Positions 2,040-4,602 of a stretch of 64,000 nt of DNA are shown in pieces (within the stretch, counting starts at the first letter, position 1; each line of letters starts with the position of its first letter). The notes under the pieces were generated by a model that worked only from the letters and a program-made list of their open reading frames with translations, did not search any database and was not told the origin of the DNA. The stretch lies in the NCBI RefSeq assembly GCF_005405065.1, contig NZ_BJDI01000001.1, positions 1 through 64,000 of the forward strand. The letters are read 5' to 3'. This DNA is from Lactiplantibacillus nangangensis (GTDB lineage: Bacteria; Bacillota; Bacilli; Lactobacillales; Lactobacillaceae). Made by a program: the position numbers and the translations under genes.

Positions 2040-2176
2040 GTGTTATCGGCCACCCTTTCATCATCCGTCAGCACGTTAAATCCGTGCGCCATACAGACTG
2101 TTGTACCCTTTTATCATAACGAAAATCCGGATAAAAGCAACGCCAATAACTTTTTAAAATTTCAGCACTTTAGTAT

Positions 2177-2190
2177 TGCAACCGCTTACA
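2177..2190 (+). promoter_or_regulatory. cre-like site before the large RNA
   Basis: TGCAACCGCTTACA matches the cre consensus TGWAANCGNTNWCA with one mismatch. It lies just before a TATACT -10 element (2202-2207), so CcpA could control the large RNA downstream. The matching -35 is weak (TTGCAA at 2176 gives a 20-nt spacer). Confidence 0.45.
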
Positions 2191-2211
2191 TATTCTGTTA
2201 GTATACTAAGT

Positions 2212-2825
2212 GAGGAAAGGAATTAATCCTCATTAGCAAGCTTCTCAATGAGCATTGGCTGTCGCTGTAATGTTAGGCAGCTAGTAAGACAAGTTAGGGT
2301 CGTTATCGAAACCATTTCGGGCGTTGAAAAGCGTTATCGGTCTAGCGAGTGTCGGGAGATTTTACGTTGGATGGCTGAACGTTAACCCTTGAATAAACGA
2401 TAACCGCAACAGCATCAATTGGTGTTATCTAGACTATCAAGTTTTAATCTTTAGATTAGAGACAGGGTGTCGCCGATGCCAAGTTTAAAGTTCCACTAGT
2501 ACAGTTCCATTGTAAGCTTCAGGTTTCTAAAAGTTTAAACGGAGGTGCATGTCTGTTACGAAGACATTCCTAAGTTTTAAACGCGAGTTCGGCTTTCGTT
2601 AAAACCCGTTTGAAGAGTCAAGAATCAAGTATTTAGGTACTTTTGATCGACTAGAGCAGATAGCTACAATAAATACGGGTTAGTCCGTTAGAAGTTGGAC
2701 ACACGTAAAATTGAATAAGCATGAAGGTGTAACGCATTAAGAACACTGAACAAGTATTTCTTGCTAATATGGATTATTCCTCATAAGTAGAACTCAAGTT
2801 GAGAAGCCTTGGGTTCTATTTTTTT
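2212..2825 (+). ncRNA. large structured non-coding RNA, ROOL-like candidate
   Basis: About 610 nt without a credible reading frame, bracketed by a -10 element and a strong terminator. The two ends pair over a long distance: GGAATTAATCC (2219-2229) with GGATTATTCC (2771-2780), and ATTAGCAAG (2232-2240) perfectly with CTTGCTAAT (2760-2768), closing some 520 nt. Inside are further local hairpins, for example ATGTCT/AGACAT at 2549-2567. It is not tmRNA, RNase P RNA or 6S RNA (none of their conserved blocks is present). Size, closing stem and host group fit the ROOL class (about 580 nt, Lactobacillales); GOLLD-type RNA or an unnamed class are alternatives. The non-coding RNA call is firm, the class is inference. 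Confidence 0.65.
2788..2825 (+). terminator. terminator of the large RNA
   Basis: 11-bp stem (2788-2798 with 2808-2818, one wobble) followed by seven T residues. Confidence 0.9.
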
Positions 2826-2979: not shown

Positions 2980-3900
2980 TTGAAAACAATCAATTTAGGC
3001 CAAAGTGGGATGCAAACATCCGCAGTCGCTTTAGGCATTATGCGTATGAATAGTTTAACTGTCGACCAAGCCACCAAAGTACTGGAAACCGCAGTTGATC
3101 TCGGCATCAATTATGTTGATTCCGCCGACATCTACGGTGGTGGCGACTCATCAACCATTTTTGGCAAAGCTTTAAAACAATCATCAGTTAAGCGTGACCA
3201 ACTGTATCTCCAATCCAAAGGCGGTATTGTCCCTGGCAAACGCTATGATTTCTCTAAACAGCACATCATTGAAGCCGTCGACGGTGAACTTAGCCGCTTA
3301 GGCGTTGACTACTTAGATAGTTTTCTACTTCACCGTCCAGATCCATTGATGGAACCAGCCGAAGTTGCTGAGGCTTTCAATGAACTTCAGATTAGTGGCA
3401 AAGTCCGTCATTTTGGGGTCTCTAATTTTAATCCGATGCAAGTCGACTTACTTCAATCAGCGCTAAATCAACGCTTGATGATCAATCAGTTGCAATTTGG
3501 TGTCATGCATACCGGTGCCATCGACTTCGGTTTGCACACCAATATGCAAGATGACCGCAGTATTAACCACGACGGCGAAATCATTGAATACTCGCGTCTG
3601 CACCACATGACCATTCAAGCTTGGTCACCTTATCAATACGGTAACTTCGCCGGAATCTTCCTCGACAATCCGAAGTTTCCTAAGTTGAATGACGCCATGC
3701 AAGCCCTCGCCGATGAAAAGCACACCAGCAAGAGTGCGATTGCGACTGCTTGGATTTTGCGGCATCCCGCTAAGATTCAAGTCATCTTAGGCACCATGAA
3801 CCCCAAGCATTTAACTGAGAATGCTGCTGGTGCTGATATTGATTTGTCCCGGCAAGAATGGTACGACATCTACTTTGCTGCCGGCAACGATTTACCTTAA
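2980..3900 (+). CDS. aldo/keto reductase
   Basis: 306-residue NAD(P)H-dependent oxidoreductase of the aldo/keto reductase superfamily (YdhF/YcsN-like), a TIM barrel reducing aldehydes or ketones in the cytoplasm. The catalytic tetrad can be placed: Asp and Tyr in YVDSADIYGGG near residues 45-53, Lys in LQSKGG and His in FLLHRPDP. The phosphate-binding GTMNPKHL stretch is near the C-terminus. Start is TTG at 2980 with AGGGGG nine bases upstream. It is monocistronic, with its own promoter, a cre-like operator and a terminator. Physiological substrate unknown. Confidence 0.92.
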   Translation: MKTINLGQSGMQTSAVALGIMRMNSLTVDQATKVLETAVDLGINYVDSADIYGGGDSSTIFGKALKQSSVKRDQLYLQSKGGIVPGKRYDFSKQHIIEAVDGELSRLGVDYLDSFLLHRPDPLMEPAEVAEAFNELQISGKVRHFGVSNFNPMQVDLLQSALNQRLMINQLQFGVMHTGAIDFGLHTNMQDDRSINHDGEIIEYSRLHHMTIQAWSPYQYGNFAGIFLDNPKFPKLNDAMQALADEKHTSKSAIATAWILRHPAKIQVILGTMNPKHLTENAAGADIDLSRQEWYDIYFAAGNDLP

Positions 3901-3943: not shown

Positions 3944-4179
3944 AGTTACTCAAAAAAATACCAACTTGCGTTAAACTCTTGCTGTTTGAAATAACAATTA
4001 CCAATCTGTTCACGCATTGGCCTGGTTGTTTAGTTAAATTTCGCATAAGAAGCGTTAAATCACCTTAAATTCAAGTTTTTATATTTCGATTTTTAGTAAA
4101 ACTGCGCTATCATTGACGATGTAAACACCTAAATAAAATCAATAATCATTTTAAATGCATGATCAAGGGGAGCCCTGCT

Positions 4180-4602
4180 ATGTCAAAATTCAACATTACG
4201 CTTATCAACGCTGACCGCGCCAAGGCAATGCTGACGGAATATAAGGAACAACGTAAGAATTCGATTCCGCGGTTAGCCCATCCGGGACGCTATATTTTAC
4301 CGGATTATAAATTAACTCGTCGCCGGGCGGCATTTAAGATCGTCAAACATACCTTCTTAACCCCCCATTACAAATCCTACGTTGCCATGGATTCTGACAA
4401 TGGCCACACCCTCTGGTTTCATAACTTTGGCTCCCTTACCGAAGCTTTGTTCTGGCTAGAAACTGGCTTAAAGATTAGCGACACGGACTCACATTCAAAC
4501 TACAAAGAATGGTCCGTTAAGCACGCCGATAAAATTGTCACCTTTAAAGACGCGCTACGTGATCTCAAAAAACAACAACCTGCTAAAAAGAAAACCAAAT
4601 AA
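4180..4602 (+). CDS. basic cytoplasmic protein, unknown function
   Basis: 140-residue protein not recognised. It is strongly basic, has no membrane segment, and ends in a lysine-rich tail (KKQQPAKKKTK). The ATG at 4180 is chosen over the upstream ATG at 4159 because AAGGGGA (4165-4171) sits eight bases before it. The upstream region is AT-rich. It is a single-gene unit closed by a strong terminator. A nucleic-acid-binding role would fit the charge but nothing more specific is visible. Confidence 0.65.
   Translation: MSKFNITLINADRAKAMLTEYKEQRKNSIPRLAHPGRYILPDYKLTRRRAAFKIVKHTFLTPHYKSYVAMDSDNGHTLWFHNFGSLTEALFWLETGLKISDTDSHSNYKEWSVKHADKIVTFKDALRDLKKQQPAKKKTK

Follow-up and report, generated by a model that had tools for sequence, protein, structure and literature searches.

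The DNA analysed here, called the window, comprises the first 64 kb of a 352 kb contig in the 2.9-Mb genome of Lactiplantibacillus nangangensis, and close to its start it carries the gene for a large RNA that almost certainly is noncoding and is built from a closing stem, a promoter with a cre box and a terminator. Our reading is that this is a free-standing structured RNA of the Lactobacillaceae that would be repressed by CcpA and act in trans, to which as a whole we give a probability of roughly 0.5. The gene occupies the intergenic stretch 2040–2979, between a minus-strand gene (1050–2039) presumed to encode a serine-hydrolase-like protein and a plus-strand gene (2980–3900) whose product we take to be aldo/keto-reductase-like. 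An initial annotation had described a noncoding RNA of about 610 nt, which agrees with the promoter, the terminator, the homologs and the lack of a credible open reading frame reported below, and with predicted ends at 2211 and 2825 (Table 1). The first 480 positions of the window, the very start of the contig, have no open reading frame of more than 64 amino acids.

Table 1. Predicted features of the RNA gene, in window coordinates
Feature	Position	Strand	Basis
cre box (CcpA operator) TTGCAACCGCTTACA	2176..2190	+	Sequence; first six bases are the -35 hexamer
Extended -10, TGtTAGTAT	2196..2204	+	17 nt after the -35; TGnTAnnnT upstream of 73/73 homologs
Whole RNA gene, ~614 nt	2211..2825	+	Predicted start near 2211, predicted end in U-run; promoter/terminator anatomy and homologs of 439–1103 nt with like ends
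Closing stem, outer helix, 5' strand UGAGGAA	2211..2217	+	Pairs with 2777–2783; covariation between genera
Closing stem, inner helix, 5' strand	2224..2238	+	Pairs with 2762–2776 (genus consensus fold)
CU-rich segment CUUCUCAA	2241..2248	+	Complementary to terminator loop; both partners in 49/73 homologs
5' module	2257..2426	+	Includes long hairpin domain (within 2302–2404); homologous to unit repeated four times in tandem in L. herbarum (G018)
Module of ~112 nt	2407..2518	+	Absent or not recognisable in congeners G001 and G002
GGAGGU motif and hairpin AUGUCU/AGACAU	2541..2571	+	Start of conserved ~280-nt 3' core
Most conserved primary sequence, AAUUGAAUA and UGAAGGUGUAA	2709..2732	+	Alignments A1, A3
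Closing stem, inner helix, 3' strand	2762..2776	+	Pairs with 2224–2238
Closing stem, outer helix, 3' strand UUCCUCA	2777..2783	+	Pairs with 2211–2217
Intrinsic terminator	2788..2825	+	11-bp stem 2788–2798/2808–2818 (one U-G), 9-nt loop 2799–2807 (UUGAGAAGC), U7; loop pairing with 2241–2248 backed by covariation

The RNA is found by BLAST in all 21 sampled Lactiplantibacillus genomes at one locus each (three of them, G001, G002 and G018, give several matches inside that locus), the closest being L002 of genome G009 with 97% identity at the RNA locus. In a wider sample 22 of 100 genomes match, namely the genus and one further genome, G024, where the match spans only 43 promoter bases; behind these lies an RNA of about 640 nt with the same start and end and little else that can be aligned. 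Used as a query, the G024 RNA matches 53 of 397 family genomes at E 0.01, many of them through short end pieces. We describe the family through two profiles of its 3' part. For the first, R1, a plain MAFFT alignment of the 3' domain (A1) gave no pairs on consensus folding, probably because the terminator arms were misregistered, so R1 is a sequence-only model; it matches 113 of 397 Lactobacillaceae genomes at E 0.1. The second, R2, was built on the 3' core of 30 diverse members and matches 122 of the 397 genomes in 16 of 40 genera at E 0.05, although these are model matches rather than verified genes, regions having been fetched for part of the R1 and R2 matches, and both counts include chance matches at the weak end. 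Genera with the RNA include Lactiplantibacillus, Pediococcus, Furfurilactobacillus, Paucilactobacillus and Secundilactobacillus. All 16 R2 matches at E 0.05 in an order-level sample of 295 genomes are Lactobacillaceae, and a class-level sample of 299 genomes searched at E 0.01 has no match except the window's own genome. The RNA class thus appears so far only in Lactobacillaceae, as judged with R2, which may be blind to more distant relatives.

The comparisons below use a homolog set of 73 sequences from 14 genera, with lengths of 439–1103 nt and a median of 614. Left out are L002, which the search pattern missed, L152, which a contig end truncates, the unsettled loci and L172, as well as L179, L182 and L169, which by inspection are close to members that were kept. 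Of 26 regions fetched as matches to the Pediococcus RNA of G024, 13 showed both ends to a strict script. Six more were inspected: L062, L073, L077, L079 and L080 carry the RNA, and L074 has a cre and a -10-like promoter without a recognisable RNA of the family; L072, L075, L076, L078 and L081–L083 stood outside that inspection. R1 supplied 34 regions, 15 of them with an exact or one-mismatch cre promoter; seven of the other 19 were inspected, and six have a cre promoter in altered form or spacing and L154 has one weakly. L171 was recovered through its 5' motif and L172 resembles it, whereas L153, L155, L164–L168 and L170 look like chance matches and L151 and L158 were left unsettled. R2 supplied 20 regions, of which 15 have both cre and closing stem, L189 and L194 look like chance matches and L190–L192 (genus g12) were left unsettled.

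The -35 hexamer of the RNA promoter, TTGCAA (2176–2181), is the left part of the cre box TTGCAACCGCTTACA. The initial annotation had noted a -10 and a cre-like site upstream of the RNA; both are present, but the cre box covers the -35 and does not merely lie upstream. The terminator that it placed at the 3' end is supported by the stem and U7 tract of Table 1 and by a terminator-type hairpin in 73 of 73 homologs. A generic promoter and terminator scanner lists neither element, the promoter because it has 8 of 12 hexamer matches by our own count against a threshold of 9, and the terminator because its 9-nt loop exceeds the scanner's limit of 8. Both are thus putative assignments that draw on conservation.

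Conservation of the promoter centres on the cre box, scored with the consensus as generally known. The strict form TTGNAANCGNTTNC is found upstream of 63 of 73 homologs and in none of 1075 background windows, and a relaxed form with at most one mismatch upstream of 72, counts that are partly circular because promoter similarity led to L022 and to several loci of Pediococcus and Furfurilactobacillus, and some distant starts were placed with the cre motif or by eye. Among the 63 homologs with a strict cre, 62 have a cre-to-TGn offset of 19 or 20 nt. In a sample drawn independently of the promoter, the 54 regions from 3'-core matches, the cre promoter recurs in 15 of 34 (R1), and 15 of the 20 from R2 have a cre as well as the closing stem. 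A cre box over the -35, here at 2176–2190 and cre-like in 72 of 73 homologs, is also a feature of 6S RNA genes of lactic acid bacteria, for which the accessible text of the source argues that the overlap is likely inhibitory (PMC8414754). By this analogy the cre box would be expected to repress the present gene as well, and from its position and conservation we consider CcpA repression quite probable. 6S RNA differs in being about 190 nt long, and L. nangangensis encodes its own 6S RNA separately. On the minus strand of the L074 region, at about 1900–2700, a cre and an extended -10 precede a noncoding-looking stretch without the ends of this RNA family, which is possibly another cre-controlled RNA.

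The predicted fold of the RNA has an energy of -164.8 kcal/mol (z -2.71), and none of 20 shuffles is as low. The closing stem joins its two ends. The initial annotation had proposed such a long stem, and its pair ATTAGCAAG (2232–2240) with CTTGCTAAT (2760–2768) overlaps the inner helix of Table 1. In each of the 73 homologs, the 5' end finds a partner as good as the 3' end in no more than 1 of 100 internal segments of 35 nt sampled. The two ends form a duplex of -23.3 kcal/mol on average with their own partner, whereas partners exchanged between genera give -12.9 (sd 0.9) and, at best in 400 exchanges, -15.5; for the inner helix alone the values are -14.1 against -7.4 (sd 0.77), with -10.5 as the best of 1000 swaps. 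Between genera 87.0% of cells in the outer helix are paired and 22 cells are altered on both sides; its covariation score of 0.300, against 0.141 (sd 0.019) for shuffles, is reached by none of 500 shuffles and by no slid version, while on two weaker measures 8 and 19 of the 500 shuffles do as well. Within the genus the stem barely varies: the outer helix has no pair changed on both sides and the inner helix a single one, with 13 of 247 inner cells broken, and the covariation evidence therefore lies between genera and not within the genus. Covariation in the closing stem had been named beforehand as a test of the proposed structure, and between genera it speaks strongly in its favour; the pattern of compensating changes shows that the ends of the RNA are kept together by selection.

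A second contact would join the same ends. In 49 of 73 RNAs, from nine genera, a CUUCUC (or CUCCUC, CCUCUC) near the 5' end faces a terminator loop with GAGAAG (or GAGGAG, GAGAGG). Own partners form 202 of 260 pairs against 189.6 (sd 2.9) when shuffled, the best of 2000 shuffles reaching 200, and the covariation score of 0.150 against 0.079 is reached by none of 500 shuffles. The column before the core of the contact is G-C, A-U, C-G or U-A depending on lineage, with 14 of 26 distinct rows unpaired there. The contact was not found in 24 of the 73 RNAs (all of g13, g14, g16, g26 and g32, four of five g12 members, L062 and L193), and over all 14 genera its duplex energy of -7.9 is not separated from that of swapped partners (-6.4, sd 0.6, best swap -8.2). 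In the pseudoknot-free genus consensus fold the CU-rich segment pairs instead with 2711–2720. A kissing contact between two molecules would give the same covariation signal as a contact within one. It is possible that the CU-rich segment is kept mainly for pairing with its own terminator loop, which weakens the case for it as a seed for mRNA pairing.

The conserved 3' core opens with the GGAGGU motif. Of the 73 RNAs, 59 have GGAGG in the core, where shuffles give 19.2 (sd 3.8). Its usual position is 260–302 nt from the 3' end, or 326–331 nt in second Pediococcus copies, and 14 RNAs lack it, including all members of g14, g16 and g32. On the 20 rows that remain once the Pediococcus, g3 and g21 forms are set aside, the hairpin behind the motif has 12 doubly changed cells and a covariation score of 0.283 against 0.184, reached by 2 of 500 shuffles; on two weaker measures 55 and 109 of 500 do as well. 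The top conserved sequence across the homologs is AAUUGAAUA...GA(A/G)GGUG, and AATTGAAT and ATTGAATA are present in 12 of 14 genera.

A GGAGGU followed by an AUG raises the question of translation. The only kept frame on the RNA strand has 17 codons, lies behind this motif and is found in 16 of 18 congeners; a 45-aa frame retains its length in none of the 18. As a dual-function mRNA, the RNA would encode a basic peptide of about 17 amino acids, a reading for which one can cite, besides the 17-codon frame of the congeners, a frame of 18 codons in g26 and, in four Pediococcus RNAs, one of 17 codons with AUC. However, the frame shows neither a protein-like substitution bias nor a synonymous excess: synonymous to nonsynonymous changes number 47/169, similar to 40/175 and 39/134 in the other frames, and the counts of variable sites per codon position (3, 5, 6) give no clear third-position excess. 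In L186 and L187 a stop comes early, after four codons, the start is missing in g3 and g21 members and some others, and the gap between GGAGG and AUG is just 3 nt. Within-genus pairwise gap events, which are not independent, are multiples of three in 222 of 2000 cases. A small-peptide gene is therefore rejected on codon statistics, though the frame is kept in Lactiplantibacillus and g26, and we regard a peptide as very improbable; the statement of the initial annotation that no open reading frame fits stands.

The same motif could instead meet the ribosome without being translated. The RNA would then bind ribosomes of the starved cell, its GGAGGU before a hairpin-locked AUG occupying the 16S anti-Shine-Dalgarno sequence without productive initiation. 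Beyond the enrichment of GGAGG at a mostly near-constant distance from the 3' end and the covarying hairpin around the AUG, an AUG lies eight bases past the motif start in members of six genera, and at roughly 100 nt from the 3' end many members carry another site, GA(A/G)GGUG-like. However, the AUG is not conserved in g12 or in Pediococcus, where four RNAs have AUC, and the motif is partly paired in the predicted fold. The lack of GGAGGU in g14, g16 and g32 argues against such a decoy as a universal mechanism, and we consider it unlikely.

The 5' arm is more variable than the core. In the 5' module the helices 2302–2308/2398–2404, 2316–2325/2384–2393 and 2341–2347/2365–2371 have doubly changed pairs within the genus. 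The matches of the two congeners in which the ~112-nt module is not recognised cover only query positions 1–227 and 340–645 (G001) or 340–648 (G002), and both RNAs are 535 nt long. Four RNAs contain tandem repeats, with about 174 nt in four copies in L. herbarum (G018), 111 nt in four (L162), 69 nt in 5.7 (L163) and 119 nt in 3.6 (L188), and three Pediococcus RNAs (L061, L063, L064) have other internal duplications.

The position of the gene before the aldo/keto-reductase-like gene, on the same strand, could suggest a cis-acting leader or attenuator of that gene. Against this, a terminator-type hairpin ends all 73 homologs (ends were picked at U-runs), most genera differ in their flanking genes as far as the flanks of limited length extend, and the reductase-like gene has a promoter-like site of its own at 2922–2950, identified by consensus match. 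In these limited flanks no neighbour gene family is common to all genera; neighbours are shared only by the genus pairs g1-g5, g1-g34, g11-g12, g13-g26, g5-g26 (transposase-like) and g21-g22 (ABC-ATPase-like). A cis-regulator is rejected because there is no constant neighbour gene, and we find this reading hardly credible. A homolog of the small protein gene at 4159–4602 (plus strand) flanks the RNA in Pediococcus and is the only neighbour found common to both genera.

A diverged housekeeping RNA (tmRNA, RNase P or 6S RNA) was likewise rejected, as the locus has no Rfam match and RNase P and 6S RNA are encoded elsewhere in the genome; ARAGORN finds no tmRNA in the 64-kb window. More generally, the 4227 families of Rfam 15 give no match at gathering cut-offs within the RNA, either in the window or in 33 homologous loci (19 scanned loci, among them the non-homolog L074, and 15 others). 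At E 0.5, seven loci yielded one sub-threshold match, mir-5928 in L001, which lies outside the RNA. Elsewhere in the window the scan found a Purine riboswitch aptamer (RF00167, 13348–13446, minus strand, 68.3 bits) and a Transposase-1 RNA (RF03014, 34209–34265, minus strand) barely over its cut-off.

Large bacterial RNAs with a fold of their own are few, and several, including ROOL and GOLLD, have no known function. The initial annotation had likened the RNA to ROOL, with a new class as the alternative. As a ROOL or GOLLD, it would be a phage-linked RNA forming a homo-oligomeric cage, and it does share a similar size, a complex fold, a large variable segment and a Lactobacillales host with these RNAs; ROOL (RF03087) in particular is stand-alone, about 570 nt long and highly structured, has one variable segment and occurs in Lactobacillaceae. 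However, the ROOL model is silent on the RNA even at E 10, yet scores 130.4 bits on the ROOL of L. salivarius pMP118, on which R2 in turn finds no match. No ROOL match was found in the whole L. nangangensis genome either, in a search whose built-in controls were silent too. For GOLLD, whose model we presume to be among the Rfam 15 families, the gathering cut-off was not reached in the cmscan of all 4227 families, the positive control being ROOL only. The 64-kb window has no tRNA (ARAGORN), and searches of 50,697 phage records and 72,556 plasmid records gave no match to the RNA. In the available text of PMC12286853, ROOL is phage- or prophage-borne and often close to tRNA islands, and GOLLD, also large and made up of distinct 5' and 3' regions with a variable linker, is said to be encoded by phages or prophages; intermolecular kissing contacts are reported for such RNAs, and that text does not mention cre control for ROOL. 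ROOL is phage- or plasmid-borne, whereas the present RNA is genus-wide at one locus. Membership in ROOL is refuted by sequence, and the chance that the RNA is a ROOL or GOLLD seems to us minimal.

A different comparison is offered by the L. plantarum supermotifs (LPSM), long noncoding elements of 800–1000 nt in L. plantarum. According to the accessible part of PMC5643018 these are multi-copy elements that other Lactobacillus species were not found to carry, in contrast to an RNA with a single locus in 21 of 21 genus genomes and in several other genera; the two are set apart on the basis of this description. None of the titles and abstract starts retrieved by searches of an open-access library describes the RNA, and so by Rfam 15 and these searches it appears to be a new class, as the initial annotation had allowed. 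If g12 is Lacticaseibacillus, a small-RNA catalogue of L. casei (PMC8220740, as far as its text is available) may contain fragments of the g12 homolog.

For its function, a possible model is RsaI (RsaOG) of S. aureus. RsaI also has a pseudoknot, but it is far smaller, at 144 nt, and we know of no modular repeats in it. The accessible text of PMC8383071 describes RsaI as CcpA-controlled and linked to glucose limitation, with CU-rich and G-rich segments, and the CU-rich and G-rich elements of the present RNA recall it as a working analogue. Most likely the RNA would act as a post-transcriptional regulator, or as a sponge, when sugar is limited, in the manner of RsaI but at a much larger size. 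As long as the cell has a preferred sugar, CcpA and its cofactor would occupy the cre box over the -35 and block RNA polymerase; when sugar is scarce the RNA would be made, as its promoter anatomy suggests. Its ends, as covariation shows, would zip into the long closing stem, and in most lineages examined the terminator loop would pair with the CU-rich 5' segment, so that both ends would be buried and presumably protected from exonucleases. The functional centre would be the ~280-nt 3' core with its GGAGGU hairpin, AAUUGAAUA, and GAAGGUGU or GAGGUGU, while the lineage-variable 5' arm, several times expanded to tandem modules, would be a multivalent binding platform, as its repetition suggests.

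We infer both the release at low sugar and the action in trans. For the latter, whether by RNA or by protein binding, we see the odds as even, while regulation through base pairing at ribosome-binding sites is a tentative and rather doubtful proposal. More tentative still is a starvation-induced RNA machine in which the 3' core possibly sits on the ribosome via GGAGGU, the valency of the 5' arm is set by module duplication and a 5'-3' clamp has the terminator loop docked on the 5' end; to our knowledge no bacterial RNA with such a clamp and an arm of tunable valency has been described. Lactiplantibacillus and Pediococcus are food bacteria open to genetics. The RNA thus offers three handles that ROOL and GOLLD do not, a candidate regulator in CcpA and cre, genetically tractable food-bacterium hosts and natural variants in the number of 5' modules. 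It could reveal that lactic acid bacteria also control carbon use at the post-transcriptional level, and it makes the purpose of giant RNAs directly testable.

Where modules are expanded in tandem within the RNA, the unit length differs by lineage (L162, L163, L188, L024). Whole genes are duplicated too: in five Pediococcus genomes (G295, G229, G133, G248, G265) a further locus holds a diverged second version of the RNA behind a cre promoter of its own (L139, L140, L141, L146 and L152, the last cut by a contig end), and Secundilactobacillus malefermentans (G115) has two copies, L070 and L071.
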